Source of the DNA: Fibrobacterota bacterium
GTDB lineage: Bacteria; Fibrobacterota; Fibrobacteria; UBA11236
Length of the DNA stretch: 60,339 nt
NCBI GenBank assembly: GCA_028287505.1
Contig: JAQBPN010000099.1
Span: 1 to 60,339, forward strand
Direction: 5' to 3'
The position numbers were made by a program, and so were the translations under genes. Positions 5,201 to 22,900 of the stretch are shown in pieces; within the stretch, counting starts at the first letter, position 1; every line of letters starts with the position of its first letter. The notes under the pieces were generated by a model. The model did not search any database, was not told where the DNA came from, and was given only the letters and a program-made list of their open reading frames with translations.

Positions 5201-8200
5201 GGCGAGGACATCACCGCCAAGAGATTCTTTTCCGCCTGGAGCGAGAAGTCCAGGGCCTCGTCGTACCGCTCATGGATGACGGCCGTGATTTGTTTCATGA
5301 TAAGCTGGTGTTCCAGCCCGGTATCGGTGCCCGACTTGGCGATGATGGCGAGGCTCTCGGCCTCATCGAAGGCGCCGTCATCGAAGCTTGCCGGCCCCAG
5401 TGTCAACCCCTTGAGGCAAGCCAGGAATTGCTGCATTTGACGGATCATCTGGTAAATCACTTCATTATGGCTCTGTTTGGCGAACTCGGCATATTTTTTC
5501 GAGTACCTCAAGACATCTTCGATCGTGCTTCCCGTCAAGATGTACTGCCAGCCCAATACGAACGCGATGTAGCTGGCGTAAACGAGATCGCCGACGTTCA
5601 GGCAGGCGACAAAGGCCTCTTCCAACATGGGGAGGCCGGTCGCGAAAGGCTTTCTCCAGCAATGGATGAGGAAACCGTGCAAGAAAAGCATGTAGCCCTT
5701 GAGCTTGTAATCGTTGAGCTTTTCGTTCAACCGGATCGCCAACTCGGAGAATTCGAAGGCCACGGGGATATTCTCGAAAATGCCCGCATGGAGAATGGCG
5801 TTCCAAGCGTAACACAGGCAGGAGGCTTCGGTGTTTCCGTAGCGGAGGGAGAAGTTGACGCCTTTCAGGATGAATAGGGGGAAGACTTTCGACTTTGTGA
5901 TGAACATCGGAGACGTCAATTCCCCGAACAATGCGATTATCGCCCGGGCATCCGGGTCGTCGGCCTCGGGGGCATCGGCCAGATCGGCGATGCGGCGTCC
6001 CCGCAGTTCGATCGGGAACAACCGCCTCTCCTCGTCGATGGCCGCTTCCATGTCTTGTGCCGATTTGGGGAAATTTATTCCGAAGGAGTCCAACCCCTCG
6101 AACCCGACCGCTACCGCGTCCTGGAATCGACCGGCGAATTGGCAAAACTTCATGCGCAGGCCGTAGACCTTGGCGCGATCGGAACGGGACCGCGTCTTGG
6201 CGAGGGCCAGGTTGAACAGATCATCGGCCCGCGCGAATCCGCCGGTCAGGTATTCGCACTCGGCCAATTCCAGGGTCAACTCGAAGGCCCGCCCATATTT
6301 CCCGTTCCAGGCATCGGAATCCAGGAGAGCCATGGCCTGATCCAGGTAATCCCGCGCCGAAGCATAGGCGATGGACGCCTTGGCTTTCCTACCCGCCCTG
6401 AAATTCAAATCGCACAGTATTTCCTTTTCACCGGCATCCGGGATCAAAGCGATTCCGCGGTTCAAGTGGTTGACCAATACGAATATATCCTCTTCGATTT
6501 CCGCTTCCGTCTTTCCCGACAGAATGATGCGGCCGATCCTGAGGTGCTCCCCGGCCCGGGATTCCTCCGGCGTCAGGGAGTACGCCGCCTCCTGGATCCG
6601 ATCGTGGAGAAACCGATAAGTGTCCTTGGTGCGTATGAGAAGGCCGGCCTTTACCGCTTCCCATAAGTCTTCGTGCAGCCGTTCCTGCGGGATGCCCAGG
6701 ACCTTGCTCAAGAGGGCGGCGCCGGCGCTTGCTCCCAACAATGCCAATCCCTTCATCGCATCCTGATTCGCCTTGGTGAACCGTATCAATTTGGATGCCA
6801 TGAGGTCCGCTACGTTATCCGTGTACCCCTTGGCCTGGATGCGATCCATATCCCAGTTCCATGCGCCCGTGCGCGTGTCGAAGGAAAGGATACCCTCTTC
6901 ATAAAGCGCCGTCAGGAACTGGATCGTGAAAAATGGATTTCCGGCCGTTTTTTCATACATGAGCCTCGCGAGCGGATCCGTGCGGCCTGCCGGACCGGGA
7001 AGCGCCCCGGCGATGAGCCGCCCCGCGCCGTCCAGGGAAAGCGGCGCGAGAATGATATGGCTTACCTCGACTCCATAGGCGCGGATGGAATCGAGGGTCA
7101 GCATGAGAGGGTGGGAAGACGTGACCTCATTGTCGCGGTAGGCGCCAATCAAGAGAAGGTAATGGAGGTCCGGAGAGCAGATGAGGTGTTCGAGGAGCTT
7201 CAGGCTCGCCGGGTCCAGCCACTGCAGGTCGTCCAGGAACAGGGCCAAGGGGTGTTCCTTCCGGGCGAACACGCCCAGGAAATTGCGGAACACGGCATGG
7301 AACCGGTTCTGCGCTTCCCGGGAGGAAAGCTCCGGCACGGACGGCTGCCTGCCGATGAGGAATTCCAGCTCCGGGACGAGTTCCACCAGAAGCCGGCCAT
7401 TGGGGGCCACCGCCTCCGATATCCCGGTTCTCCATCGCGCGGCTTCCTCTTCGGGCTTGACCAGGATTTGCCGGACGAGGGTCCCGATGGCATCCGCCAG
7501 GGTAGCATACGGGATACCCCTGTTGTACTGCTCGAACTTTCCCGAGGCGAACAGACCCCGCGGCAGCACGATCACCTTGTGCAGCTCGTTCACCAGCGAA
7601 GACTTGCCCACTCCGGAGTAGCCGGAGACCACCACCAGCTCGGAGACGCCTTGCGTCAGCACGCGGTTGAAAGAGCGAAGGAGGGTGCGGATCTCCCGCT
7701 TCCGGCCGTAGAGGGTTTCCGGAATGAGCAGCCGGGAGGATGCATCCTGTTTGCCCAAGGGGAAAGCGCCGATGCGGCCTTGGGTCTCCCATTCCTCCAG
7801 GCAACGCGCAAGGTCGGCTTCGACGCCTTCCGCGGTCTGATATCTCTCTTCCGCCGTCTTGGCCAGGAGCTTCATGACGATGTCTGAGACTTGGCGGGGA
7901 ACCCGATCCCATGATCCGGCCTGTGTCTCCCTGGTGCGTTCAAAAGGCGGGATGGGCTGCCGGGCCACATGGCAATGGATCCATTCCAGGGGGTCGGAGG
8001 CGGTGAACGGTAGGGTCCCCGTAAGCATTTCGTAGAGGGTGACCCCGAAGGAATAGAGGTCGCTCCTGGAATCGACTGAGCGGTTCATGTATCCGGTCTG
8101 TTCGGGGGCCATGTAGGCCAGGGTCCCGGCGATGACCTGCGGGGGCCCCGGGAGCTGACGTTCGCGGGGGAGGCGGGAAGCGATGCCGAAACCCATCAGT

Positions 8201-8628
8201 CTTACGGTCCCGCCGGTGAGGTCCACCAGGACATTGGAGGGCTTGATGTCCTTGTGGATTAGATTCCGGGCATGGACCTTCCCAATCGCCCCGGCCAATC
8301 CGATGGCTATTCGCAACAAACCGGGTAAGGGCATGGGCGCCAAGAAGGAATCGAGAGGCAGGCCGCCAGGGTCCCGGAGAATGAGAGCCAGCAGCCCCCC
8401 GTTTTCGCGAACCAAAGCCAGGGGTTGAATCGTTCCGGGACCGTCCAGTTCGGGGCGGAGGGAGAACTCGTGTCCGATTTTTTCGATCACGTTCCGATCC
8501 GGATACTGCGAGGCGGGTATCCGGATCAGAACCGGGAGCTGATCCTCCTGTTTCAGGCCCCTGAAAAGCCTGAATTCACGATCTTCCCGGATTTTCTCAA
8601 GGATGGAATACCCTGGAACCACCGGCAT
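2203..8628 (-). CDS. Giant Ser/Thr-kinase-like / AAA ATPase / TPR / GAF / PAS / histidine kinase / receiver protein (kinase domain probably inactive)
   Basis: 2141 aa if started at the ATG at 8628 (MPVVPGYSILEK), where the kinase homology begins; the frame stays open upstream but reads as non-protein sequence. Domains in order: Ser/Thr-kinase fold ~7-270, AAA/STAND ATPase ~305-600 (Walker [10 protein letters not shown] ~336, Walker B LFLDDLQW ~464), helical TPR-like region ~650-1300, GAF ~1313-1480, two PAS domains ~1486-1743, HisKA with H1771 in HDFNN, HATPase_c ~1866-1990, and a C-terminal receiver ~2013-2130 (ITDVVMPDMGG). The kinase domain keeps HKDIKPSN (D127, N132) and APE but has Arg36 where the ATP-binding Lys is expected (VLIRI) and reads GFG instead of DFG (G146). 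This suggests a pseudokinase or sensor module, with signalling through His-Asp transfer. It is a single gene with no partner regulator beside it, and is a paralogue of the protein at 17282-22900. Confidence 0.9.
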   Translation of the reverse strand: MPVVPGYSILEKIREDREFRLFRGLKQEDQLPVLIRIPASQYPDRNVIEKIGHEFSLRPELDGPGTIQPLALVRENGGLLALILRDPGGLPLDSFLAPMPLPGLLRIAIGLAGAIGKVHARNLIHKDIKPSNVLVDLTGGTVRLMGFGIASRLPRERQLPGPPQVIAGTLAYMAPEQTGYMNRSVDSRSDLYSFGVTLYEMLTGTLPFTASDPLEWIHCHVARQPIPPFERTRETQAGSWDRVPRQVSDIVMKLLAKTAEERYQTAEGVEADLARCLEEWETQGRIGAFPLGKQDASSRLLIPETLYGRKREIRTLLRSFNRVLTQGVSELVVVSGYSGVGKSSLVNELHKVIVLPRGLFASGKFEQYNRGIPYATLADAIGTLVRQILVKPEEEAARWRTGISEAVAPNGRLLVELVPELEFLIGRQPSVPELSSREAQNRFHAVFRNFLGVFARKEHPLALFLDDLQWLDPASLKLLEHLICSPDLHYLLLIGAYRDNEVTSSHPLMLTLDSIRAYGVEVSHIILAPLSLDGAGRLIAGALPGPAGRTDPLARLMYEKTAGNPFFTIQFLTALYEEGILSFDTRTGAWNWDMDRIQAKGYTDNVADLMASKLIRFTKANQDAMKGLALLGASAGAALLSKVLGIPQERLHEDLWEAVKAGLLIRTKDTYRFLHDRIQEAAYSLTPEESRAGEHLRIGRIILSGKTEAEIEEDIFVLVNHLNRGIALIPDAGEKEILCDLNFRAGRKAKASIAYASARDYLDQAMALLDSDAWNGKYGRAFELTLELAECEYLTGGFARADDLFNLALAKTRSRSDRAKVYGLRMKFCQFAGRFQDAVAVGFEGLDSFGINFPKSAQDMEAAIDEERRLFPIELRGRRIADLADAPEADDPDARAIIALFGELTSPMFITKSKVFPLFILKGVNFSLRYGNTEASCLCYAWNAILHAGIFENIPVAFEFSELAIRLNEKLNDYKLKGYMLFLHGFLIHCWRKPFATGLPMLEEAFVACLNVGDLVYASYIAFVLGWQYILTGSTIEDVLRYSKKYAEFAKQSHNEVIYQMIRQMQQFLACLKGLTLGPASFDDGAFDEAESLAIIAKSGTDTGLEHQLIMKQITAVIHERYDEALDFSLQAEKNLLAVMSSPISFVQLFYHALTLAALYSNASGRRQVEFAKALDEKRLKLRHWADNCPENFLNAYALVSAEVARIEGRDLEAMRLYDQAIRSARENGFVLNESLANEIAGRFYLGRGFETNAHTYLRNARAGYLRWGATGKVKQIGLRYPGIGDEALIGPTATIGAPVDQLDLMTVVKASQAVSGEIVLGKLIEKLLSIAVEHAGAENGLLILSGSPGSDAPSGPLKHYIEANAITGPDRVEVSLRHAPVMPGDIPESLFQYVLRTGENVVLHDALLPNLFSADPYLAAKRPRSVLCMPLARQSKLMGVLYLENNLSPGVFTPTRLSVLNVIASQAAISLENAGFYAQLEDERARLRAVIQQVPAGLAIAEAPSGRMIAANDYFEKILRQPFRTSFTRENYGEYTGFHPDGRRYTSEEWPLARSIDMGEIVQDEEIELLLGDGTRGWINVNSAPIRDVDGKITAGVIIFQDITEKKKSREERESLLGQLREERERLSAILDLMPVPILLLEPGSARVLFANKAAQDLAGGRFPDGEAKVEGGMQSYCTDSQGVRLTAESMPDLRASRGEKFEDFEMEWHRAAGTRSLLINSETLRDKDGNPEIAVLAFQDISPLKQAEQQLRQSQKMEAIGRLTGGIAHDFNNLLAVINGYSAMALAKMDASHPLYDFLREILKAGERAAGLTKQLLVYSRKQILEPKLWNLNTIVSEMNGMFKRLIGEDISLTTALSPQVDWIRADRSQIEQILLNLVVNARDAMPHGGRLEVESATVFLDKIYARLHPNVVSGPYVMLRVSDTGMGMDSETMARIFEPFFTTKEPSKGTGLGLSVVYGIVKQAGARIDVASESGKGTTFRIYFPIAGAPGVMAPEAPQSTPSSYRGNETVLLVEDEESVRKFVSKALESMGYKVLQAGNGREALEKIFRPHDPVHLVITDVVMPDMGGRELIDRLHNLLPGLPVVFISGYLDKAILRKGVNEWEETFLQKPFNPFQLAMKVRESLDRTAAPPVLLQS

Positions 8629-8841
8629 GTAAGCACGCCTTCGCCTGAATTTTCCGGTTAAAAAAACACTCGGATTAAGTAATAAATTAAAAAAAACCGG
8701 AGCCGGAGATCGGTTCCGGGTCCACGCTCTGAATATCGTTTTTCGGCTGTTCCAGGCCGAGATGGCCGCCGCCACCAGGGTAGGTTCCTTGTCGACGGCA
8801 CCCGTGAAAGGTTGTTTCCATGGAAAACACGGCGAGGGTCC
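8629..8841. promoter_or_regulatory. Divergent intergenic promoter region, A/T-rich
   Basis: This is the only space between two divergent genes, so both promoters should lie here. A very A/T-rich stretch (about 8656-8698, two poly-A runs) is flanked by inverted CCGGTT (8654-8659) and AACCGG (8695-8700). No convincing -35/-10 pair could be fixed by eye. Confidence 0.35.
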
Positions 8842-9291
8842 ATGGATCACAGGAAAATATTCGCATGGCTGACATTGGACATGGCGGTCTTCATCGCCAT
8901 CAATGCCATCCTCATTTCCCGGTTCCCAAAGGTTCTTGCCGGCCTCGGGGACATCAGGTTCCTGCACTTCACGGTACTCGGGTTGGCGGCGTACCGGGCC
9001 TCCAATATCGTATCCAATGAAGTGGTCACCAAACCCCTGCGGGCTCCCTTCGTGGAAGAGGTGGTGAAGGAAGGAAAGACGGTCGAGGAGCCCAAGAAAT
9101 CCGGATTCCTGGGGGCCACGGGGCTGTTGATCTATTGCCCTTCCTGCACCGGGGTATGGCTTTCCGCGGCGTTGGCCTACGCTTACGCGTTTTGGCCGGG
9201 CCGGACTTTCATCGTGGCCTTGTTCCTGGCGATGAGCGCCGTCGAGCGCATCCTGGCCGCGATGATCGGGTGGTTCAAAAGGGTTCCTTGA
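8842..9291 (+). CDS. Small membrane protein, DUF1360-like
   Basis: 149 aa from the ATG at 8842 (MDHRKIFAW); a TTG at 8812 would add ten residues but has no properly spaced ribosome site. The protein begins with a membrane helix (LTLDMAVFIAINAILI), continues with FLHFTVLGLAAYRASNIVSNE, a basic/acidic loop (VEEVVKEGKTVEEPKK), then a YCPSCTGVWLSAALAYAYAFWP segment and a last helix. The Arg-containing second segment and the CPSCTGVW motif match the DUF1360 family, found in spore-forming and other bacteria, function unknown. It is divergent from the giant kinase and convergent with the gene ending at 9328; nothing in the context fixes a role. Confidence 0.65.
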   Translation: MDHRKIFAWLTLDMAVFIAINAILISRFPKVLAGLGDIRFLHFTVLGLAAYRASNIVSNEVVTKPLRAPFVEEVVKEGKTVEEPKKSGFLGATGLLIYCPSCTGVWLSAALAYAYAFWPGRTFIVALFLAMSAVERILAAMIGWFKRVP

Positions 9292-9327: not shown

Positions 9328-10158
9328 TTACGGAAACCAGAGAAGATAGGCGGAGGCATTGTAGGCCGCCGCGTCCCGATAGCCCCACAGGCTGTGCCCG
9401 GCTTTGAATCCCAGGGCCAGGCCCGCGGACAGGAAATCCTCCACGAAAAGGTTCGGGACCAATCCGGCATTCCATTGCGGCTTGGGACCGTCCCGGCCCA
9501 GCAGGGACTGGCCCAAAGAGGCGGATCGCGCCCAATAGGAGGACTTCCAATACCCCAGCCCCTCCAGGCCTACCTTCCACTTTTCCGAGGGCCGGAAGGA
9601 CAGTTTGCCGCTCGGGTAACCCCCCCAGGATCCGGCCTTGGCGATGGCGTCATCCAGGGCGTATGCCACTTTCGCTTCCATGGAAAACTCCCAGCGCCGC
9701 GAATACCGGGTGATATTGGGATTGACGGCCGCGCCCAGGGTAACCTGAATGTTTCCTGACCCGATCCAGGGATCCCCGTCCCGGGTATCGTAGCCCGCGG
9801 GGAAAATCAATCCCGCGCGGCATTCCACGCCCCCCAGCTTTTGTCCCAGGTAGAATTCCCCATCGCCCAGGGCGATCCGATCGACGGTGCCGGTATAGAG
9901 GCGCTTGGAGGTCCATAGCCAAGGGAGGGATAGGAAGGCGGGTTGGCCGGCCAGGGTTCCATACAGGCCCAGCACGGCGATTTTGTTGAACTCATAGCGT
10001 TCCAATCCGTCGGCATAGGGCTTGGGTACGAATCCGTCCAGGTCTCCGTAGGCGGCCCAGGTTCCCGAGGAAACGGTTGCCAGCCCCAGAGAGGAATTCC
10101 TGGCGGCGGCCGCATGGAAGGGGAGAAGCAGGAAGGCTGCCAACAGGGAGATTTTCAT
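9328..10158 (-). CDS. Secreted, probable outer-membrane beta-barrel protein of unknown function
   Basis: 276 aa, ATG at 10158. A clear signal peptide (MKISLLAAFLLLPFHAAAA) is followed by alternating polar/hydrophobic stretches with many Gly, Tyr and Trp residues, and the chain ends in an aromatic residue near the C-terminus (YLLWFP), as in outer-membrane barrels. The overall layout resembles transporter-type barrels of unknown substrate. It lies 61 bases downstream of the repeat lipoprotein gene and on the same strand, but a 7-bp GC hairpin stands between them (10190-10206), so it may be either the last gene of the envelope operon or a separately transcribed gene. No close family was recognised. 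Confidence 0.6.
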   Translation of the reverse strand: MKISLLAAFLLLPFHAAAARNSSLGLATVSSGTWAAYGDLDGFVPKPYADGLERYEFNKIAVLGLYGTLAGQPAFLSLPWLWTSKRLYTGTVDRIALGDGEFYLGQKLGGVECRAGLIFPAGYDTRDGDPWIGSGNIQVTLGAAVNPNITRYSRRWEFSMEAKVAYALDDAIAKAGSWGGYPSGKLSFRPSEKWKVGLEGLGYWKSSYWARSASLGQSLLGRDGPKPQWNAGLVPNLFVEDFLSAGLALGFKAGHSLWGYRDAAAYNASAYLLWFP

Positions 10159-10219: not shown

Positions 10220-11761
10220 TTACTGGACGCCCTCTTTTTCGAACCGCAGGTTTTCCAGCAGCACGGTGCCGCCCGCCGCGCCTTCCGGCTTGGTGAGGCT
10301 GAAGGGCAGGCGGTTGAACTCCAGCTTCTGGGAGCTGGTCCAGATCAGCAGGGGCACCACGATGTTTTGCCAGCCCGTCTTGGTGGCATCGTAGCCCACG
10401 TCGATCAGGCGTATTTCCACCGCGTCGGCCAGATGCTTGGACTCGATCTTGATGCGGAGGTCCGGGACTTGGGACTGGATCGAGAACTTCAAAGCCGACC
10501 CGATCCACGAGCTCAGGTTGACGGTATCCTGCAGGCCGGCGTTGTTGATGAAGAGGAGGAATCCGATTCCCCAGGTGGCTGTGAACGTCAGCTTCCGGCA
10601 TTTGGGCTCGAGATTGCATGTGGTCACTTCCTCGCTGCGTCCGGCCAGGATGCCTTTCACCCCCGGGTCGGCGACCGCGCCCACGTCCCCGCCGTTGAAA
10701 TACCAGGTGAGGTTCCAGGGCGGCTTGGTGGCATCGATGGACGGCGTCAGCTTGCCTTTCGTCTTGTAGCCCAGGATCAGCACCGTATCCTGGTCCGGCA
10801 CGGAACAGGTGAACAGATCCTTGCAGTTTGGGTCCTTGCAATCGATGAGGCCGTCGCTGTCGTTGTCGAGGCCGTCCTTGCAGAGCAGGGTGGTGTTCTC
10901 GGCCGGATGGCACACCAGGAAATTCTCGCAGTCCGAATCCTTGCAATCGGTCAGGCCGTCCCCGTCATTGTCCTTGGAGTCCGTGCATAGGGCGGGGGTG
11001 TTTTCCACCGGGCGCTGACACATGGTGAAAGAGCCGCAGCCGGTCGTATCGGCGCAATCGATTTTCCCGTTCGCGTCGTTGTCGATCTTGTCCGTGCACA
11101 GGGAAAGGGTGTTCTCCACCAGCACCGGGGCGCCGCACATTTTCAGGGTTTGGCAAGCGGGATCCTCGCAGTCGATCTTGCCGTTGGCGTCGTTGTCGAT
11201 TCTATCCGCGCACAGAACGGTGGTGTTCTCCAGCGAGGCCGGGGCGGGTTCGCAGATTTTCAGGGGCTGGCATTGCGCGTCCGCGCAGTCGACCTTGCCG
11301 TTGTTGTCATTGTCGATCTTGTCCCCGCAAAGGGCGGGGGTGTTCTCCGCAAGGACGGGTGCCTGGCATTTCTGGAAGGCCTGGCAGCGCGCATCGGCGC
11401 AATCCACCTGCCCGTTGTTGTCGTTGTCGATTCCATCGCTGCAGCGCACCAGGGTGTTTTCCGCATTGTCGGCATTGTTCACCGTCTGGCATGCGGACAG
11501 AAAGCCGCAGGCGGGATCGTCGCAATCGACGAGGCCGTTGGCGTCATTGTCCGCATGGTCCGCGCATGTCTCGGCCGTGTTCTCGACGGGCGTGGGGATG
11601 TAGGCTTCCACCTTGCGCAGTTTGTAACTGTCCTTGTAGTCGGAAATGCATCCGGGGATCAGAAGCCCCGTCAGCAGGGCGGCGGCGCCTATTCCACATA
11701 TTCCGCCGATTGCGCCCATGGCGCTCCAAAACCCCGTGAAACGGTTGCGTCGCATGCTCAT
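10220..11761 (-). CDS. Lipoprotein with seven Cys/Asp-rich repeats and a C-terminal beta-sandwich
   Basis: 513 aa. The N-terminus has a membrane segment ending in a lipobox-like IPGC (Cys38), so the protein is probably lipid-anchored. Residues ~59-320 hold seven repeats of 35-40 residues with the pattern ENT...C.D..DND.NG..DC.D..C, close to the putative metal-binding motif of MopE-type proteins; the DNDxNG loops look like Ca2+-binding sites and the cysteines probably form disulfides. Residues ~325-513 are a beta-sandwich, carbohydrate-binding-like domain (LTWYFNGGDVG, GWQNIVVPLLIW). The start codon lies one base after the stop of the preceding gene, so translation is likely coupled to the Ig/barrel protein. 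Probably a surface or periplasmic-facing adhesin or binding component of the ExbBD-like operon; ligand unknown. Confidence 0.75.
   Translation of the reverse strand: MSMRRNRFTGFWSAMGAIGGICGIGAAALLTGLLIPGCISDYKDSYKLRKVEAYIPTPVENTAETCADHADNDANGLVDCDDPACGFLSACQTVNNADNAENTLVRCSDGIDNDNNGQVDCADARCQAFQKCQAPVLAENTPALCGDKIDNDNNGKVDCADAQCQPLKICEPAPASLENTTVLCADRIDNDANGKIDCEDPACQTLKMCGAPVLVENTLSLCTDKIDNDANGKIDCADTTGCGSFTMCQRPVENTPALCTDSKDNDGDGLTDCKDSDCENFLVCHPAENTTLLCKDGLDNDSDGLIDCKDPNCKDLFTCSVPDQDTVLILGYKTKGKLTPSIDATKPPWNLTWYFNGGDVGAVADPGVKGILAGRSEEVTTCNLEPKCRKLTFTATWGIGFLLFINNAGLQDTVNLSSWIGSALKFSIQSQVPDLRIKIESKHLADAVEIRLIDVGYDATKTGWQNIVVPLLIWTSSQKLEFNRLPFSLTKPEGAAGGTVLLENLRFEKEGVQ
10802..11587 (-). repeat. 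Seven in-gene tandem repeats encoding Cys/Asp-rich modules
   Basis: About 105-120 bases per unit; each encodes ENT-x4-C-x-D-x2-DND-x-NG/DG-x2-DC-x-D. Units are diverged at the DNA level, so they are an old protein repeat and not a recent expansion. Confidence 0.85.
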
Positions 11762-11762
11762 G

Positions 11763-13886
11763 TCAATCCTCGCGTCCGAAGGTCATGGAGAAGTCCAACA
11801 ACACCTTGGGCTTGGGGAGATCCCGGCCGAAGCCCACCTTCAGGGATGCCGTATAGCCCACCCAGCGGAAGGAGCCTTCATGGGTCAGGGCCGCGCCCAC
11901 GTTCTGCTCGAAACCGCGATCGCTGTGGAAGCGGTCTTCCAACCAATAGGCGGGGCCTATTCCGATGGCATGCCCAAGGTTGAGTCCCAACAGGAGGTCC
12001 ACCTGGAGGATCTCGTTGTCGCCGTCCCCATAGGCGTCCACCAAGCGCTCCGCATCCTCGTTGCATTTCAGGAAGCCGGCCACCAGGCTGTCGGCCTGAT
12101 CGGTTCCGGAGCGCAGGTCCTTGAGGCAGGTTTCCAACTGCTGGTTTCCCAACTGGTTCTTCTTGAAATCCTGGGGATTGAAGAGCAGGATGCCCTGCCG
12201 GGCATGGTACTGCGCCAGGTATTTGAAGAAGAAGGGATTGTCCCGCAGGCGGTTGTAGCGGCCGTCCAGGCGCAGCATGAACCCGCCATAGGTGACTCCG
12301 GAGCCTCCCCCGAAATTGAACCCCATGTCCAGGTACATGCGGTTGTTCTCCCCGGCCAGGGACGCGGGCAGGGGTTCGAATCCGGCGAAGAAGAAAGGCA
12401 GGGAGGCTTTGTCCACCTCCGTGAACAGGGCTCCCAGGCGCGCGCGCCCCAGGCGATAGAACGCATCCGCGTTGGCGCCGCCCGTAACCTGCCGGATACG
12501 CAGGTCCAGATCCTGGCGCATGGCTTCGTGGGACAGCACCCGATAGGAGACCATCTGCCGGGCCTGGTTCCCCAATTCGTCCTCGGCGGAAATCTCCATC
12601 ACGTGGCTGCCGGGGCTGCCCGTGGCCAGGGGAATCCGGCCGCCGGTCAGTTCCACGCCGCCGTTTTCCGTGCGGGCCTGGTAGCGTATGTCCTTGCCCG
12701 GTCCTTGCGCCACCGGGGTATAGAAGGAGGGTTGCCCCTCCAGCAATTCGCTGCTGTTCAAGGCGCTCTGGAAGCTGAGGGCGGAAGGCGCGGACAGGTT
12801 GAAGGTTCTTTTGTCCGAAGCTCCCAGGGGATCGGTCGCTTCCAGCCCGAAGGTCAATTGGCTCACCTGCACGGCGTCCCGGACGCGCATGGAAAAGGTG
12901 TGGGTCTCCGCGTCGAACGCCATTCCCTCGGGCAGGGAGAACGGCTTCAGCTTGAGTTCGGACAGAAGGTGATCGGGATCGGAGATGTAGGGTTGGAACT
13001 GCCACACGCCGTTGGCACCCACCTCCCGCGCGGGCTCCCCGCCGATCTTGGGCTTACCGTTCCGGGTTACCGTCAAATCGAATGCCAGTTCATCCGAATG
13101 GTGGGCCGCGTTCTGGGCCTTGACCTTGATTTTCCAGACGCCCGCCTTTTCCGGTTTGCCCACGATGGCATGGGCGCGGTCTTCCCACTTGAGGCCTGGA
13201 GGCAGGCGGGAATCGATGGAGTAGTCCAGATCGGTGGAGGGAGCGGCGCGGTCCACGGCCCATACGGTCCAGGCGAAGGGCTGATCTTCGAAGGCGCGGC
13301 GCGGCGGTTCGGAGACGATGTTGGGCTGGGTATTGGGGATCTCCGGCTTCTTGCCGCCCGGCTTCCCGATGAAGCGCAGCATGCCCAGCAGTTCGTTCGG
13401 GGCCATCACCGTCATCTTGTTGCCTTCGAAGCGGAAGCCGATTTCGGCCTTGTCCGGGACACGGCCGAAGTATTCCTCCAGGATGGTGATGAACTCGGCG
13501 CCCAGGGTATAGGCGATCTTCTCGCGGCCCTCGGCCAGATCGGCGCGGGACTTCCACACCTCGCTGCTGGATTGGGCGGAGAGCTCCACCACGGCCGCGT
13601 TGCGGATCTTATCCAGCACCCCCGCGGACTTCATGGTCTGCCACACCTCTTCATCGATAAGGATCACCTTGTTCTTGAAGCGGATAATGTCCCCGATGGA
13701 GACGCCGCGGCGGAGATCGCCGATCAGGAAAACGGGCTTGCCCTCCGCGTTGAACCGGGCGGTGAATGCGGCCTCCACCTGCTTGTCCGGGATGGACGCG
13801 ACACCGTAATGGTTGAGCGGCTCCTCGGCCTGCGCCGACAGCGCCGCGAAAAGGATCCAGGCCGCCTTTTTCGGGAAATTGCGCAT
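11763..13886 (-). CDS. Large exported protein with Ig-like domains and C-terminal barrel-like region
   Basis: 707 aa from the ATG at 13886, which gives a good signal peptide (MRNFPKKAAWILFAALSAQA); this ATG overlaps the preceding stop by one base (TGATG). Residues ~20-210 form an alpha/beta region of unknown type (GDIIRFKNKVILIDEEVW, EFITILEEYFGRVP). Residues ~215-400 contain putative-Ig (cadherin-like) domains (DYSIDSRLPPGLKWEDR, AHHSDELAFDLTVTR, LPEGMAFDAETHTFSM). The last ~170 residues have Gly/Tyr-rich strands (DMGFNFGGGSGVTYGGFML, LLLGLNLGHAIGIGPAYWL, ending LDFSMTFG) like an outer-membrane barrel. In an operon with TolQ/ExbD-like proteins, it may be the energised or anchoring outer-membrane partner. 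No named family recognised. Confidence 0.65.
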   Translation of the reverse strand: MRNFPKKAAWILFAALSAQAEEPLNHYGVASIPDKQVEAAFTARFNAEGKPVFLIGDLRRGVSIGDIIRFKNKVILIDEEVWQTMKSAGVLDKIRNAAVVELSAQSSSEVWKSRADLAEGREKIAYTLGAEFITILEEYFGRVPDKAEIGFRFEGNKMTVMAPNELLGMLRFIGKPGGKKPEIPNTQPNIVSEPPRRAFEDQPFAWTVWAVDRAAPSTDLDYSIDSRLPPGLKWEDRAHAIVGKPEKAGVWKIKVKAQNAAHHSDELAFDLTVTRNGKPKIGGEPAREVGANGVWQFQPYISDPDHLLSELKLKPFSLPEGMAFDAETHTFSMRVRDAVQVSQLTFGLEATDPLGASDKRTFNLSAPSALSFQSALNSSELLEGQPSFYTPVAQGPGKDIRYQARTENGGVELTGGRIPLATGSPGSHVMEISAEDELGNQARQMVSYRVLSHEAMRQDLDLRIRQVTGGANADAFYRLGRARLGALFTEVDKASLPFFFAGFEPLPASLAGENNRMYLDMGFNFGGGSGVTYGGFMLRLDGRYNRLRDNPFFFKYLAQYHARQGILLFNPQDFKKNQLGNQQLETCLKDLRSGTDQADSLVAGFLKCNEDAERLVDAYGDGDNEILQVDLLLGLNLGHAIGIGPAYWLEDRFHSDRGFEQNVGAALTHEGSFRWVGYTASLKVGFGRDLPKPKVLLDFSMTFGRED

Positions 13887-14428
13887 CAGTTCCGGAATCC
13901 CCGTTTGTTGATCCAATCGAGGTAGCGTTGATGCAGGTTCACGGACTCCGGGGTCTGGTTGTAATCGACCTGGTTGTCCAGGCGGAACCATTTCTTTTCC
14001 TGCGGGCTCCACTTCATGCGGCCGTGGCTGTAGCTGGGGACATTGCTGAATTTCTGGATGTACATGGAGTAGTAGGTCTGCTTGTCCACGTCGTGCCAGA
14101 CCACCATCAGGTTGTCGTTGGCGTCCGCCGCTTCCAGGAAGCGCGCGCCCCCGCCCATTTCCGAGAGGATGACGGAATTGCCGGTCAGGTCGAATGCATC
14201 CTCATACTGGCGGGCGTTCTTGTCTTCCTTCTTGTTGCCCACCACGAATGCGTAGGCTTTCTCCCAGATGGTTTCCTTCTCGGCCCGCTCCAGGCGCGCC
14301 TTGTCCAGGCTCATCATGGGCACAAGCAGCACCATGCGCAGGACCAGGATCACGACCATCACGGTGAGGGCGTCCTCGACGGCCAGGGCGGGTCCCAGAT
14401 CTTCGGCTTCCGATTGGTGGACGTGCAT
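13886..14428 (-). CDS. ExbD/TolR-like single-pass membrane protein
   Basis: 180 aa. A short cytoplasmic N-terminus is followed by one membrane helix (~20-42, ALTVMVVILVLRMVLLVPMM) and a soluble domain. Asp19 (in AVEDAL) sits at the membrane entry, as does the proton-carrying Asp of ExbD/TolR/MotB. The C-terminal ~120 residues (VGNKKEDKNARQYEDAF, WHDVDKQTYYSMYIQKF, MKWSPQEKKWFRLDNQVDY) do not resemble the usual ExbD periplasmic fold or an OmpA domain. The gene overlaps both neighbours by one base, immediately after the TolQ/ExbB-like gene. Likely the periplasm-reaching stator subunit of a proton-driven envelope machine; the assignment rests on topology, the Asp and the gene pairing. Confidence 0.65.
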   Translation of the reverse strand: MHVHQSEAEDLGPALAVEDALTVMVVILVLRMVLLVPMMSLDKARLERAEKETIWEKAYAFVVGNKKEDKNARQYEDAFDLTGNSVILSEMGGGARFLEAADANDNLMVVWHDVDKQTYYSMYIQKFSNVPSYSHGRMKWSPQEKKWFRLDNQVDYNQTPESVNLHQRYLDWINKRGFRN

Positions 14429-15687
14429 CAGTTGATTTCCGGCTTGAGGTGCCTGGGCACGGAGATCTGCGATTGCACCTCCAGGAAGGACCGGTATTGC
14501 CGCTCGTAGGCCAGCAACTCATCCATGCGCTTGGCGAACGTCAGTTGCAGGGGAGGGATTTCCCCCATGCGCTGGGCCACGTGCTGCACGAAGCCTCCCA
14601 GCAGGTCCACGTTCTTGTTCACGCCCGCCTGGGTCTCCAGGATGCGGTGCTCGGTATCCTTCATGGCTTTGGCGAACTGGTTTTCGGATTCCTTGTGCAA
14701 ACGCATCCAGTTTTCCTGCGAGCCCTGGAACAGCATGGTGATATGCTTTTGCGAACTCTCCTTCAGCTCCAGCAGCCGGCCCTGGAACTCCCGTTCCAGG
14801 TCCAGCATCTTCTGCTGGAAGGCCTGTTGCTGCATGAGGGATTTGCCCAAATCGTCCTTGCCGCCCACCTGTTCCCGGATCCAGGGCTGCAGCTCGGTGA
14901 TGCTCCATTCGTCCACGAACCCGTTCACCATTTCGAAGGTGCCGCAGATGCGCTTGAGGATCTGGATGGTCAGGAGTTCGATCAGGATGGAAAGCGCCGT
15001 GGCGATCAGGGTTGCGAGGATGGCGTACTGATCGCCATCGATGGCGCCGGCGATATGCTCGACGAAGCTGGAACCCTTCTCCGCGTTCTTGGGATCCAGG
15101 GTGAGGATGGCCTCGCGCATGGGAGGGAAGGTCATGATCAGGCCGATGAGGGTGCCCAGGAATCCCAGCTTGAGGAGGATGCGGTTGACCGAGGCGTGCG
15201 TCCCCACCTTCTTGTCCACGCTTTTCATGCGGCGCAAGGTGGCATGATCCATCATGGCGGCCATGGGAGCGGTGTCGCCTTTCATGCCGAAGAGCAGGGA
15301 GCGGTTGATGAGATCGAAGAGATGTCCGGAGACGTTCAGGGATTGCAGGCGCCCCTGCAGATCCGTGAGGGAAAGGCCGCGCGCCTGGAGCAGTACGCCC
15401 AGGGTCATTTTCACCTTCTTGAGGCCGCGCGCCAGCACGCGGAGCTGGATCAGCGCCGAGACCTGGCCGAACGCGAAGATGGCGAACATGGTGAGCAGGA
15501 AGGGGTCATGGTACCAGGACGGGATCTTGGGCGCATGCGCCGAGGCCGCATGGCCGGGAGCTCCGATTTGCAGGCATAATGCGGCCAAGGCCAGGATGGG
15601 CACGGGCAGCAGATTGGCCCAGCCGATCATCCTGCCGGTCTTCTCCGCGCTGATCCTGGCGTTGTCCAGAGGCGAATAGCTTTTCAT
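14428..15687 (-). CDS. MotA/TolQ/ExbB-type proton channel protein with coiled-coil C-terminal tail
   Basis: 419 aa from the ATG at 15687, which has GGAAG five bases ahead; a GTG at 15693 would overlap the preceding stop. Membrane helices lie at ~20-42, ~62-83, ~168-188 and ~221-243; the last two (LGFLGTLIGLIMTF and YAILATLIATALSILIELL) match the conserved core of MotA/TolQ/ExbB channels. The loop between helices 2 and 3 is cytoplasmic (~84-167). After the last helix a hydrophilic tail of ~170 residues rich in Glu, Gln and Lys (MLDLEREFQGRLLELKE, HKESENQFAKAMKDTE) should be a coiled coil, longer than in ExbB or TolQ. It would form a proton channel with the ExbD-like protein encoded next. Confidence 0.75.
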   Translation of the reverse strand: MKSYSPLDNARISAEKTGRMIGWANLLPVPILALAALCLQIGAPGHAASAHAPKIPSWYHDPFLLTMFAIFAFGQVSALIQLRVLARGLKKVKMTLGVLLQARGLSLTDLQGRLQSLNVSGHLFDLINRSLLFGMKGDTAPMAAMMDHATLRRMKSVDKKVGTHASVNRILLKLGFLGTLIGLIMTFPPMREAILTLDPKNAEKGSSFVEHIAGAIDGDQYAILATLIATALSILIELLTIQILKRICGTFEMVNGFVDEWSITELQPWIREQVGGKDDLGKSLMQQQAFQQKMLDLEREFQGRLLELKESSQKHITMLFQGSQENWMRLHKESENQFAKAMKDTEHRILETQAGVNKNVDLLGGFVQHVAQRMGEIPPLQLTFAKRMDELLAYERQYRSFLEVQSQISVPRHLKPEIN

Positions 15688-15689
15688 CT

Positions 15690-16829
15690 TCACTTCCTTT
15701 CTTTGGACCGCAGTCCGAAAATCAATTCGCCGCTCCAGGCGACCCGGAATTGGCTCCGGTCGGAACCGAAATAGGCGATCCGTCCCAGTCCCACGCTGAT
15801 GGGAATCGCCTGATCCCCCAATTGCATGGCCGTCAGGCCCACGGGGGCGAAACGATACCAGCCGCCGGGAATGAATCCGTCCGGCGTCACCACCATGCCC
15901 ATGCCCCAGGTGCCCAGGAATCCCGGCAGATCGTCGAAGGCGATGTAATGGATGGGCGCTTTGTAAATGTCCGGCGCGACGGTGACGGTATAGCGGAGGG
16001 CGCCCAGGCGGGCCTCCACGCTATGCGCCAGGGACGGCGGGGAGGTGCTCTCGAATATCTTGACGACCTTGGTTTCGCCGCCCGCCGTGCCGCGTCCGAA
16101 GTACTTGCCCCGCAAATCCGATTCCGCCCAGAAGTATTCGGGCAAGGGCAATGGCGCCCATTGCAAATGGTAGCGGACGAAATCGACTCCCAAGCGCAGG
16201 CCTCCGCCCAAGTGTCCGGCCTTGGCGGCGTAAGGCACGGAATCGGGCAATTCGCCTTTGAAGGAGAGATAATCCACCTCGCCGCCGACATACAGGAAGG
16301 CGAGCTTCTTTACGAATGCGGCTTCCGCCCTCCCCCTGCGGACCAGGACACCGCTGAAGGAATAGTCCAACCCGTAGCCCAGGGTGAGGTTTTCGTCCCA
16401 ATGTCCCAGCCGGCCCCAAAGGCCGTTCCTATCCTGGGTGCTCCACCAGGACCCGGAGCCCTTCTTCGCTCCGGCTTCGGAATCGGCAGGTTCGGCCGGT
16501 GAAATTCCGGACCCTCCGGCCGCCAACTGCGTCCGGATTTCCGGGAAATCGGCCAGCATCTCCTCGGCCCGGGTCTGGTCAAAGCGTCCGACCTCGGTCC
16601 CGTCCAGGAAAACGATCAGCACGGGGGCGGCGCCTTGCCGCATCCAAACCGTCACGCGTCCCGAGGAAAGTTTGGAGGTTTCAATGCCCAGGCGCTTGGA
16701 GACGACCGCCAGAAATCCCCGATCCGAGACGCTCACGCCCGTTCCTTGCGCCAGGGCGGGCATGGAAAGCGACGCAGAGCCAAGGGCAAACACGAAAAAA
16801 ATCGCTTGCGCGATGCGTCGGTTACGCAA
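15690..16829 (-). CDS. Exported probable outer-membrane protein, first gene of the ExbBD-like operon
   Basis: Proposed start is a TTG at 16829, preceded by AAAGGA at a six-base spacing and giving a standard signal peptide (RNRRIAQAIFFVFALG...PALA-Q), 379 aa. An ATG at 16901 would place an implausible 24 residues in front. The mature N-terminal ~90 residues form a small domain (GFLAVVSKRLGIETSKLSSG, VTVWMRQGAAPVLIVFLDG), then a Gly/Ser-rich linker and a ~270-residue region of alternating strands rich in Tyr, Trp and Gly, ending in LIFGLRSKERK, consistent with an outer-membrane barrel. It is translationally linked (2-base gap) to the TolQ/ExbB-like gene. Family not recognised. Confidence 0.55.
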   Translation of the reverse strand: MRNRRIAQAIFFVFALGSASLSMPALAQGTGVSVSDRGFLAVVSKRLGIETSKLSSGRVTVWMRQGAAPVLIVFLDGTEVGRFDQTRAEEMLADFPEIRTQLAAGGSGISPAEPADSEAGAKKGSGSWWSTQDRNGLWGRLGHWDENLTLGYGLDYSFSGVLVRRGRAEAAFVKKLAFLYVGGEVDYLSFKGELPDSVPYAAKAGHLGGGLRLGVDFVRYHLQWAPLPLPEYFWAESDLRGKYFGRGTAGGETKVVKIFESTSPPSLAHSVEARLGALRYTVTVAPDIYKAPIHYIAFDDLPGFLGTWGMGMVVTPDGFIPGGWYRFAPVGLTAMQLGDQAIPISVGLGRIAYFGSDRSQFRVAWSGELIFGLRSKERK

Positions 16830-17281: not shown

Positions 17282-20200
17282 ATGGCCGGTGAATCGGGTT
17301 CAGTGGTAAGCACTTTTCCTTTGGCCGCGAAGAGCGGTGCGGAGGATTACACGCTGGGCCAAATCGTGCATTCCAGTTCCCGCAGCCTTCTGTATCTGGC
17401 TACGCGGAAATCCGACGGTGCATCCGTGATCATAAAGACGATTCCAGATGAATTTCGCGCGTCGGACGCGGACCGGATCCGCAACGAGTATGCCGTAGGT
17501 TTGAAGCTGAATGTTCCCGGCGTGATGCAACCCCTCGAGTTGTGGTCCTATCAAGGCCGGCCCGCGTTGGTGTTGGAGTTTTTCGACGGCCGCCCATTGC
17601 ACAAGGAAATCAAACCGCCCCTGGCGACGGATCGGTTCCTCGAAATCGCCTGCCGCATTACCGCCATTCTTGCCGGCATCCATGCCCGGAAAGTGGTGCA
17701 CAAGGACATCAAGCCGGACAATATCCTGTATTCCGCGAAGACGCGGGAAGTCCGCATCGCGGATTTCGGCATTTCATCGTTCCTGAATTCCCATCGTCCC
17801 CGCCGGGAATCCGTCTGGACCGAAGGATCGCTTCCCTATATGTCTCCGGAGCAGACCGGCCGCATCGACAGGGTCATCGACGCGCGCAGCGATCTGTATT
17901 CCTTGGGAATCACCTTCTACGAGTTGCTCACGGGATCCTACCCCTTCCAGGCCGATGATCCCCTGGAGTGGGCCCATTGCCATATCGCCAAGATCCCCCA
18001 GCCGCCGCGGGAGCGGGACCGGTCCATTCCGGAAATCCTGTCGGCCATGGTGCTCAAATTGCTTTCCAAGGATCCCGAAGACCGGTACCAGAGCGCCCAG
18101 GGGTTGCGCCTGGATCTGGAGGAATGCCGCCGCCAATGGCAATTGACCGGCGCCATCCAGGCTTTCCCTTTGGGCATCAGGGATTTCTCCGAGGGCTTGC
18201 GGATTCCGCGCCGGCTTTACGGACGGGACGTCGAGATCGCCGTCATGAAGGGAGCCTTGCAGCGCGCCGCCGAAGGGGAGGGCCCGGAAATCGCCATGGT
18301 GTCCGGATATTCCGGAGTCGGGAAATCGAGCCTGGTGGAAGTCCTGCGGATGAACAGCCTGGCCGCCCAGGGAATGTTCGTGGCGGGAAAGTTCGATCAA
18401 TACCATCGCGACATTCCTTACGCGACACTGGTGGAGGCTTTTTCCGCCGCCGTCCTGCAGATCCTGGCGGGAGGGGAGGAGCGCATCTCCGATTGGAACG
18501 CGCGTCTCCAGGCCGCGTTGGGCGTGAACGGCAGGCTGATGCTGGAGTTGATTCCCCAGTTGGAATCGCTCATGGAAAAACAGCCGCCCGTGCCGGACCT
18601 TTCCCCGACCGAAGCCAAAAACCGGTTGCGCATGGTGTTCCGCCAATTCATCGGCGTGTTCGCCCAGCAGGATCATCCCCTGGTCCTGTTCCTGGACGAT
18701 ATGCAATGGGCCGATTCGGCCAGCCTGGAAATGATCGCGGATCTGGCCGCCAATCGGGAACTGCGGCAGTTGCTGATGGTGGGCGCTTACCGCGACAATG
18801 AAGTGGGGCCAAGCCACCCGCTCGCGATCGCGATGGAGGCCGTCAGGAAAAGCGGGGTGGTCATCCGGAGCCTGGTGCTTTCCCCGCTATCGGAAACGCA
18901 GCTCTCCTCTCTTCTGAACGATGCGCTGAGGCCCGCTTCCGGAGACCTTTCCCGGCTGACCGCCCTGATCAAAGAAAAAACCGGCGGCAACCCGTTCTTC
19001 GCCATCCAGTTCCTCCTCTCCCTGAACGAAGAGGGTCTGATCCACCGGGATGCGACCGGGGCCTGGGACTGGAACATCGAGGCCATCGAAGCCAAGGGCT
19101 TCACGGAAAACGTGATCGATCTGATGTCCGAGCGCCTGCACCGGCTTTCCCCGGCCGCGCGGGAAACGTTGCAGCATTTCGCCTGCCTGGGCGCCAAGGC
19201 CGGCGTGGGGGACATGGCCAGGGTCCTGGGCAACGCGGAAGAGGATTGCCATGACCGGCTTTCGGAAACCCTCGCGGCGGGCCTGGTGGTATCCTCCTTC
19301 GACACCTTCGCCTTCCTGCATGATCGCGTGCAGGAAGCCGCCTATTCTTCCATCGGCGAGGACCAAAGGCCGGAATGGCATTTGCGGATAGGCCGCCGCC
19401 TTCAGGAGAACCGGTCGCAGGAAGCCATCGAAGAGAAGGTGTTCCTGATCGTGAGCCAGCTGAACCGCGGCATCAAATTGATCCGGGACGAACGGGAGAA
19501 GGAGAACCTTCTCAAGCTGGATACCCTGGCGGGAAGGAAGGCCAAGGCCTCGGTGGCTTACGACACGGCCAGGACCTGTTACTCCTATGCCATAGAATTG
19601 CTGCCCATGGGCGCCTGGAGCCTGCGTTATCGGGAATGCTTCTCCCTGCACCTCGAGCTTTCCGAATGCGAGTTCCTGCTCGGAAATTTCGATCGCGCCG
19701 AGGAACTCGCCCTGATGTTGCTCGAGAAGGCGGATTCGCGTTCGGATCGCGCCGCCGTGTACGAATTGCGCATGCGTTGCCATCAGCTTTCCGGGAAGTT
19801 CGACAAGGCCCTGGCGCTGTCCATGGAGGGCTTGGCCCTGTTCGGGATAAAGTGGCCCGAACGCGATGAGGATATCCTCGCCGACCTGGGCAAGGCCATG
19901 CAGGAAGTGCAGGGCCTGATGCAGGACCGCTCCGTCGATTCAATCCTCAACGCGCCGGTGGCGGAAGACGCGGACGTGAGAGCGCTGATTTCCCTGCTGG
20001 TGGGGACCATACCCAGCACCTTCTACATCAAACCCATTCTGTTCCCTCTGGTGGTGCTGGAAAGCACCATCCAGTCCCTGCGCCACGGCAATGTCGAGGA
20101 TTCCTGCATCGCCTATTGCTGTTATGGGGCCATCATCCAGGAAGACGTGGAGACCGGTTTCCGGATTTCCGAAATGTCCCTGCGCCTGAACGAGAAATTC

Positions 20201-22900
20201 GGGGATGCGAAACGCAGAAGCGCGGTGCTCTATCTCCATGCGGCGCCGCACAATTACCGGAAAAGGTCTTTCGCCTCCAGCTTCCCCATCCTGGAACGGG
20301 GCTATCTCTGCGGCCTGGAAACGGGCGATCTGCTGCACGCCTCCTACAACGCCATCCAGCATGTGTACCAGGCCGTGGAGTCGGGCATGCCGTTCGATCA
20401 GTTGCAGCAACTCACCGCCAGGTACCGGGAGTTCACCCGGCAAAGCCATAATCCGATGGTGGAACGATCCCTCGAGACCGTCGATCAGTTCGTCGCGGCC
20501 CTCCAGGGCAGGACCAAGGGCGCCACCAGCTTCGACGACGGCGCATTCGACGAGAAAGAGACGCTGGATTATTTCGCCAAGGTGGGATTCATCCCCTCCG
20601 TGGCGGCCCACCATATCCGCAAACAGATGCTGGCCGTCCTCAACGGACAGTTCGAAGAGTCCCTGGCCCATGCCGCCCTTGCGGCCGGGGTTTTGCTGGC
20701 CGTGCGTTGCCTTCCCCTGGAAGCCACCTACCATTTCTACCGGGCCTTGGGCCTGGCGGGCCATTATTCCCGCGCGGGCGCGGAACGGCAGGCGGAATTC
20801 CTGCGCGGACTGGAAGAAGAGCAGACCTGGCTGGGGAATGCGGCCAGGCATTGTCCGGAAAACTTCCGGAGCCGCTACCTGCTGGTTTCCGCCGAGATCG
20901 CCCGGCTCGAGGGCAAGGATCTGGAGGCCATGCGCTATTTCGAACGGGCCGTGGAAGCGGCTGAAGCCAACGTGCTGATCCTGGACGAGGCCTTGATCCA
21001 GGAAACCGCCTCCCGTTTCTTCCGCGACAAGGAATTGGGGCACACGGCGGATCAGCATCTGGGCCGGGCCCGCTCGGCCTATCGCAGGCTGGGAGCTTCG
21101 GGAAAGGTCGCGTCGATCGATCTCCACCATCCCCGGCTCCGCACGGAAAAAGGCGTGGGACGGGACACGGCATACGAATCGCATGCGCACCAATTGGATA
21201 TCCTGTCGGTAGCCAAAATCTCCCAGGCCATATCCGGGGAAATCCTGCTGGACGGCCTGCTCCGCAAGATGATGGCCGCCATGTTGGAACAGGCGGGAGC
21301 CCAATGGGGATGCCTCTTGTTGCGCAATCAGGACAAATACATTCTGGCGGCGGAAGCCGACCTGGCCGAAAACGGGTCCGTGACCGTGGTCCTGACTCCG
21401 GCGGACGCGGATCCGAAGGCAGTAGCGCGTCCGCTACCCCAATCCATCCTCGCTTTCGCGGCCCGGAGCAAGAAGCGGCTGATCATGGAAAACGCCGTCA
21501 TGGATGCGACCTTCTCCGTCGATCCCTACATCGTTCGCGCCAGGCCCAAATCGGTGCTGTGCATGCCCATCCTCCGGCAGGGCGAACCGTCCGGGTTGCT
21601 TTACCTGGAGAACAATCTGCTGGCCGGCGTTTTCACCGCCGACAAGCTGGAAATCCTGGAGTTGATAGCCTCGCAGGCGGCCATCTCCCTGGAGAACGCG
21701 CGCCTATACGAAGGCCTGCGGCGGGAATACTCGGAGCGCAAGCAAGTGGAAGAGCAACTTCGCCACTCCCAGAAAATGGACGCCCTCGGCACCCTGGCCG
21801 CCGGCATCGCCCATGATTTCAACAACCTGTTGACCGCCATCATCGGCTACAGCGAAATGGCCTTGATCAACCTGAACGGCGAGGATCGCCTTTTCGGATC
21901 CCTGCGGGAAATCCTGAAGTCCGGAGAAAGGGCGGCCGGCCTCACCCGCCAGTTGCTGGCCTATAGCCGCAAGCAGGTGCTCTCACCCAAGCTCTGGAAC
22001 CTGAACGAGATCGTCAAGGAAATGGAATCCCTGTTGGAGCGCCTCATCGGCGAGTCCGTGACCGTGGACGCGATCCTGGGCATCAATGTGGGGCACGTGC
22101 GGGCGGACCGGGGACAGGTGGAACAGATTCTCATGAACCTGGTGGTCAACGCCCGCGACGCCATGCCCAGAGGCGGTATGCTGACCGTGGAGACCGCAAA
22201 CGTGGAGCTGGGACCGGATTTCTGTTCCGGACATCCGGGCATGGTGCCGGGACCCTATGTGATGATGGCCGTGCGGGACAACGGCACCGGCATGACGCCG
22301 GAGGTCCAGGCGAAGCTGTTCGAACCCTTCTTCACCACCAAGGAAGTGGGCAAGGGCACCGGCCTGGGATTGGCGGTCGTTTACGGCATCGTGCATCAAA
22401 GCGGCGGCGGCATAGCCGTGCAAAGCCTGCTGGGGCAGGGGACCACCTTCCGCATCTACCTGCCGCGCGCCGATTCCGCGCCGGACGAACAGGACGATGC
22501 GATCCTGCCGGGACCGGATCGGAAATCCATGGGAGGGGAAACCATCCTGTTGGTGGAAGACGAAGAATCGGTGCGGAAGTTCACGGCCCAGGCGTTGGAG
22601 TCCCAAGGCTACCAGGTCCTGGTCTTCGCCAGGGCGCGCGAGGCCCTTCTCGCCCTCGACGGCCCGTCCCTGGAAATCCATCTCGTCATTTCCGATATCG
22701 TGATGCCGGATATGGGAGGAAAGGAATTGGCCGAGCGCATCCGGAAGTTGCGGCCCAAGCTGCCGATCCTGTTCATTTCCGGTTATGCCGATCAGCCCGA
22801 GGGCCACGATCCGATCCGCGGGGAAGGGCTCCTGCAAAAACCTTTCGGTCTTTCCGAAATCCTCAAGCGGGTGCGGCAGATCCTTCGCATGCGCTTATAG
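17282..22900 (+). CDS. Trifunctional Ser/Thr kinase / AAA ATPase / sensor histidine kinase with receiver domain
   Basis: 1872 aa, ATG with a GGGGGGAAC ribosome site. Ser/Thr-kinase domain ~23-290 with all key residues: Lys52 (VIIK), D142 in HKDIKPDN, D161 in DFG, and SPE. It is followed by an AAA/STAND ATPase (Walker [10 protein letters not shown] ~343, Walker [11 protein letters not shown] ~471), a long helical TPR-like region ~650-1300, GAF ~1319-1475, HisKA with H1511 (HDFNN), HATPase_c ~1607-1730 and a receiver ~1753-1870 ([11 protein letters not shown]). It differs from its paralogue at 2203-8628 by lacking the two PAS domains and by retaining an apparently active kinase site. Cytoplasmic, no membrane helices. 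Proteins of this architecture are known but their substrates mostly are not. Two palindromic repeats follow the stop. Confidence 0.92.

Follow-up and report, generated by a model that had tools for sequence, protein, structure and literature searches.

A compact operon in a Fibrobacterota genome, encoding a MotA/TolQ/ExbB-type channel next to exported proteins of barrel-like and Ig-like character, raises the question of whether its products form an ion-driven machine of the cell envelope and, if so, what would carry force from the inner to the outer membrane. The operon lies in a window of 60,339 nucleotides (the whole stretch of DNA analysed here), which constitutes one contig of a 6.07 Mb genome.

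Operon organization and genomic neighborhood

Five minus-strand ORFs, A to E, follow each other from 16829 down to 10220 with spacings of only -4 to +1 bases (Table 1), and encode proteins of 379, 421, 180, 708 and 513 aa, respectively. This bears out the compact five-gene operon described in a first-pass annotation of the DNA. The Pfam/NCBIfam content of the operon and its neighbors also agrees with that annotation: no known transducer, i.e. no TonB, TolA, Pal or Gld partner, was recovered. The genome possesses its own canonical ExbB and ExbD sets, which are separate from the operon.

Table 1. Coordinates of the genes and features discussed, as positions in the window
Feature	Position	Strand	Description
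Gene A	15690..16829	-	Exported, beta-rich; signal peptide; TTG start at 16829, AAGGA 6 bases upstream
Gene B	14428..15693	-	Channel of divergent MotA/TolQ/ExbB type with 4 predicted TM helices and a coiled-coil tail in the cytoplasm
B Thr181	15151..15153	-	Aligns with ExbB Thr148; invariant
B Thr232	14998..15000	-	Aligns with ExbB Thr181; invariant
B Glu239	14977..14979	-	Last TM helix, invariant; Ala188 in ExbB
B coiled-coil tail	14431..14886	-	Cytoplasmic; length variable; mostly conserved YE+QYR motif at end
Gene C	13886..14428	-	Single-TM protein with periplasmic beta-sheet domain (AF2 model)
C Glu18	14375..14377	-	TM helix start; acidic in 20/20 loci
Gene D	11763..13886	-	N-terminal domain, 3 Ig domains, predicted C-terminal beta-barrel
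D N-terminal alpha/beta domain	13377..13820	-	Best conserved part of D; outside Pfam families
D tandem Ig-like domains (He_PIG/cadherin-like)	12531..13334	-	Pfam, VIA-align
D 12-stranded outer-membrane barrel	11775..12515	-	Predicted model
Gene E	10220..11761	-	Predicted lipoprotein; seven acidic double-disulfide repeats; accessory
E seven repeats	10805..11584	-	4 Cys in every repeat, plus a DxDxNGxxDC loop that looks like a calcium site

Two giant multidomain sensor kinases of 2254 and 1872 aa flank the operon (2203-8967 on the minus strand and 17282-22900 on the plus strand); by eye they combine Ser/Thr-kinase-like, ATPase, GAF, histidine kinase and receiver domains and look like paralogs of each other. 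A further exported protein is encoded on the same strand 61 bases downstream of E (9328-10158), and was left out of the module because no homolog of it was found beside other cassettes. The plus strand at 8812-9291 encodes a small membrane protein, which we take to resemble the DUF1360 family.

Phyletic distribution and a four-gene core

Searches with B in 60 relatives led to the same cassette. Of 168 Fibrobacterota genomes, 17 encode C, exactly the same 17 encode A (profile A4), and 18 encode the N-terminal domain of D, namely those 17 and one in which D lies at the start of a contig. The order A-B-C-D is retained in every locus examined (21 including paralogs), and the pairwise distances of the four proteins, uncorrected for the species tree, correlate at 0.92-0.96. 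Thus, the expectation that the genes would stay together in other Fibrobacterota held for four of them, and on this genomic record A-B-C-D is an all-or-none unit. Homologs of E, in contrast, were found adjoining D only in the two closest loci (L019 and L020); E is therefore an accessory component, and the unit first drawn with five genes has a core of four.

The cassette is dispensable, since the search gave no match in any of the many genomes of genus g4 that it covered, nor in two of the four genomes of genus g2. Three genomes, including the source genome, encode two cassettes each, one being cut by a contig end; the second, diverged A-B-C-D cassette of the source genome (L026, 6213-11717 of contig C35) is devoid of E. 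A scan of 84,980 species by short exact patterns, which may miss homologs, returned 15 loci, and no title among them names another phylum.

Beside A, and divergent from it, several loci of the source genus and of the sister genus carry a sugar-kinase-like gene, which in some of these is followed farther out by an IMP-dehydrogenase-like gene. Flanking genes differ between genera and no conserved substrate gene was found nearby; neighboring genes were accordingly dropped as a guide to what the substrate might be. SprA of the type IX secretion system is encoded by 160 of the 168 Fibrobacterota genomes, including all 89 of high quality; a link to type IX secretion was likewise set aside as uninformative, SprA being near-universal and not tracking the cassette.

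B is a distant homolog of the MotA/TolQ/ExbB superfamily

The Pfam MotA_ExbB model (PF01618) scores B at 15 bits against a curated cut-off of 22.9; its paralog also falls below the cut-off, and among NCBIfam models TolQ is one of the best matches of B, albeit weak and subthreshold. A PDB profile search with full-length B recovered chance coiled-coil matches only, and the channel part was therefore tested alone. The genome encodes twelve clear members of the MotA/TolQ/ExbB family elsewhere, and in a profile-profile comparison (hhalign) against ten of these, of the TolQ/ExbB family, the channel region of B aligned over 157 columns with a probability of 93.2% (E 3e-7), as opposed to a maximum of 4.8% for one reversed and twenty block-shuffled control profiles. 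With E. coli ExbB included in the target profile the values were 89% and E 2e-6, and against the two MotA proteins of the genome the probability was 2%. Hence, the assignment of B as a MotA/TolQ/ExbB-type channel, made at first sight of the sequence, is well supported by profile comparison as one of distant homology, of a divergent TolQ/ExbB type that lies under the Pfam cut-off.

B displays four hydrophobic segments (22-47, 64-88, 169-190 and 222-247). Thr181, Thr188, Thr228, Thr232, Ser235 and Glu239 are identical across all 20 aligned loci, and both pore threonines of ExbB (T148 and T181) are thus kept in 20/20 loci. The coiled-coil tail, initially put at about 150 residues, is indeed present, whereas its length is no constant feature, with an about twofold range among homologs.

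C shares position and topology with ExbD

The product of the next gene had been taken for an ExbD-like protein with a key aspartate, Asp19, at the membrane entry. It does have one N-terminal TM helix with E18-D19 at the helix start. However, Pfam searches with C yielded no family above chance, ExbD/TolR (PF02472) included, and hhalign comparisons with ExbD proteins gave 4-5%, which lies within the range of shuffled profiles, so that kinship with ExbD is not upheld. The choice of Asp19 also had to be given up: position 19 is Asp in 16 of 20 aligned loci and Glu, Asn or Ser in the other four, whereas position 18 is always acidic (Glu in 19 loci and Asp in one). A salt bridge between Arg31 in the TM helix of C and Glu239 of B was likewise ruled out, as Arg31 is replaced by Phe in 8/20 loci while Glu239 is constant. 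The C gene of one locus (L046, 10224-10726) consists of two overlapping ORFs, as though frameshifted, through either sequencing error or decay.

In the AF2 model of C (mean pLDDT 82) the TM helix is followed by further helices and a sheet of six to seven strands, and another helix closes the C-terminus. Foldseek retrieved nothing below E 0.1 with it; VIA-align gave TipC2 (Z 8.0) and polo-box domains (Z 5-7), all in the range of chance resemblance, and ExbD is absent among the matches listed. The periplasmic part, noted early on as unusual, is predicted to be a beta meander with a C-terminal helix, which would be a fold different from that of ExbD. By sequence, the topology of C is that of an axle subunit, and an acidic residue stands where its TM helix begins; C resembles ExbD in position and topology only and is, by analogy, a positional counterpart of ExbD, MotB and GldM.

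Predicted outer-membrane and accessory components

A model of D built from 16 sequences (mean pLDDT 76, pTM 0.40, with region 138-182 poor) places an alpha/beta domain at the N-terminus, followed by three Ig-like domains and, at the C-terminus, by twelve strands. Pfam detects two He_PIG domains in D and recognizes He_PIG in 11 of 12 members, and VIA-align relates the Ig part to SraP, cadherins and dystroglycan with Z up to 12.7. Residues 457-703 superimpose on the porin KdgM (4fqe) with Z 12.0 over 166 of 170 residues at 4.5 A, followed by VhGalP, a Vibrio oligogalacturonate porin (Z 11.4), and FapF (Z 10.4); barrel-fold matches of this predicted model fall at Z 10-12 across 164-190 residues. 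When beta-strand alternation was used as a barrel test, barrel and Ig strands were not separated. Together, the He_PIG domains and the predicted 12-stranded barrel agree with the initial description of D as an Ig/barrel protein. Where the barrel of a protein is C-terminal, its N-terminal part is normally periplasmic; thus, D probably forms an outer-membrane pore whose rod is directed toward the inner membrane, an orientation suggested by the order of N-terminal rod and C-terminal barrel.

The N-terminal domain of D shows 36-67% identity between loci and has no match in Pfam. In a PDB profile search its sole match was TolR (E 1.6), and a stretch at 13727-13805 of the window (about residues 27-52 of the D model), IPDKQVEAAFTARFNAEGKPVFLIGD, resembles LPPEQVVAEVSSRFKANPKTVFLIGG of E. 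coli TolR. This short likeness, which finds no backing in profile comparison, was judged to be due to chance; in an hhalign comparison with 39 ExbD/TolR proteins, E. coli TolR among them, the domain reached 0.1%, a value that does not exceed those of shuffled profiles, and the idea of a transplanted ExbD/TolR periplasmic domain was rejected.

Protein A has no convincing Pfam or PDB profile match. Of its description as exported and barrel-like, the export and the beta-rich character stand, whereas a small outer-membrane barrel would be a guess from its strand-rich C-terminal half. The seven Cys/Asp repeats reported for E are recovered by NF033662 in seven stretches (E 1.2e-55, 184.8 bits against 41 bits). 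The proposal that the C-terminal domain of E is a carbohydrate-binding module found no sequence support in the PDB and was rejected.

Proposed mechanism and alternatives

We propose, at a probability of about one half, that the cassette specifies one conserved ion-driven envelope machine of the TolQ/ExbB-MotA mechanistic class, with D supplying the periplasmic reach. The axle subunits known to date are anchored to peptidoglycan, hand force on to TonB or TolA, or cross the periplasm themselves, as GldM does. The length of C is probably insufficient for the last of these, and C has no partner for the other two, while the conserved domain of D at the end of the rod could meet C near the inner membrane. 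The outer-membrane protein itself would thus provide what TonB, TolA or GldM provide elsewhere. By analogy with 5:2 motors (PMC9389320), B would oligomerize, presumably as a pentamer, in a ring around the TM helices of a C dimer. Proton flow past Glu18 of C and Thr181, Thr232 and Glu239 of B would cause C to turn or rock, and the periplasmic beta domain of C would then act on the conserved N-terminal domain of D, which the Ig rod would hold near the inner membrane. This action might open, pull or position the barrels of D (and A). The proton drive, the 5:2 stoichiometry and the contact between C and D are inferences, as would be any role in adhesion or secretion of the kind suggested at the outset. 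The more specific form of the proposal, a separate proton-driven machine that dispenses with an inner-membrane transducer, its new axle C acting directly on a pore D equipped with its own Ig rod and docking domain, is advanced tentatively. The cassette would most likely serve to let a polymer through the outer membrane in a gated manner or to handle it there, a weak suggestion drawn from the barrel resemblance and the repeats of E.

TolQ's place among the best, though subthreshold, NCBIfam matches of B, the link that D would make between outer membrane and periplasm, and the failure to find a conserved substrate gene nearby would all suit a Tol-Pal-like or envelope-maintenance device, in which B and C would power D and A in tethering or constricting the outer membrane, with no transport. 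We consider this unlikely: the cassette is present in only 17 of 168 genomes, compared with canonical ExbD-family proteins in all 101 genomes sampled, and the operon contains neither Pal nor an OmpA-type peptidoglycan-binding domain. Surface proteins often contain Ig-like domains and disulfide-rich repeats of the kind seen in E, which would fit a surface-motility or adhesion motor where B and C drive the movement or display of A, D and, in some species, E. Gliding is moreover powered by related motors (PMC9389320). Such a motor is nevertheless doubtful, given that most loci lack E, that no large adhesin is conserved nearby and that SprA does not track the cassette. A sensor, with D and A detecting an outside cue and gating an ion leak via B and C, and with the coiled-coil tail of B relaying the signal inward, would draw on the conserved end of that tail and on the signaling tail of ZorA, a known relative, but is quite improbable in view of the variable tail length and the lack of a conserved cytoplasmic partner gene.

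Relationship to known systems

The ion-driven machine proposed here shares with the ExbB/ExbD/TonB and TolQ/TolR/TolA-Pal systems a homologous, if distant, channel protein with both pore threonines, followed by a gene for a single-TM protein with an acid at the TM entrance. It differs from them in that B has four predicted TM helices rather than the three of ExbB and TolQ, in that C shows no detectable homology to ExbD or TolR and has a predicted periplasmic fold that appears different, and in that the cassette lacks TonB, TolA, TolB and Pal while including genes for predicted outer-membrane barrels. With the MotA/MotB stator it has in common the four predicted TM helices of B and a partner with an N-terminal TM helix; however, B is not recognizably close to the MotA proteins of its own genome (the 2% hhalign value above), and C has no peptidoglycan-binding domain. 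In GldL the conserved TM glutamate E49 is needed for proton-driven motion (PMC8986121), and the invariant Glu239 of B is comparable to this essential residue. As in GldL/GldM, a separate partner protein would extend into the periplasm, but C has only about 180 residues and is probably too short to cross it, so that D would have to span the compartment, and GldK and GldN are absent from the operon. ZorA/ZorB of the Zorya defense system likewise pair an ExbB-like channel with a coiled-coil cytoplasmic tail; a PADLOC search of the five proteins nevertheless gave no match at E 1, which lends no support to a Zorya identity, and the operon encodes predicted outer-membrane barrels in place of ZorC, ZorD and ZorE. 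Finally, D resembles the KdgM-family oligogalacturonate porins and FapF in its predicted 12-stranded barrel, but is set apart by its three Ig domains, its conserved N-terminal domain and its tie to an inner-membrane channel. Going by the predicted model, this likeness is one of shared fold, not of shared family.

Generic ion transporters are described as widely diverse in a recent survey of MotAB relatives (PMC12505986), and a TonB/ExbB/ExbD operon comes up for discussion in a proteomic analysis of F. succinogenes (PMC6851124). Our literature search found no paper naming both Fibrobacterota and ExbB.

Implications

B has true kinship with known channels; what could set the system further apart is its new axle, together with the built-in outer-membrane arm. 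A handful of systems (Ton, Tol, Agl and Gld) have shown how ion flow at the inner membrane is turned into work at the outer one. If the proposal is true, this compact, obligate four-gene set would be simple enough for expression and testing of the entire force path, and would add to the variety of partners known for the ExbB fold.
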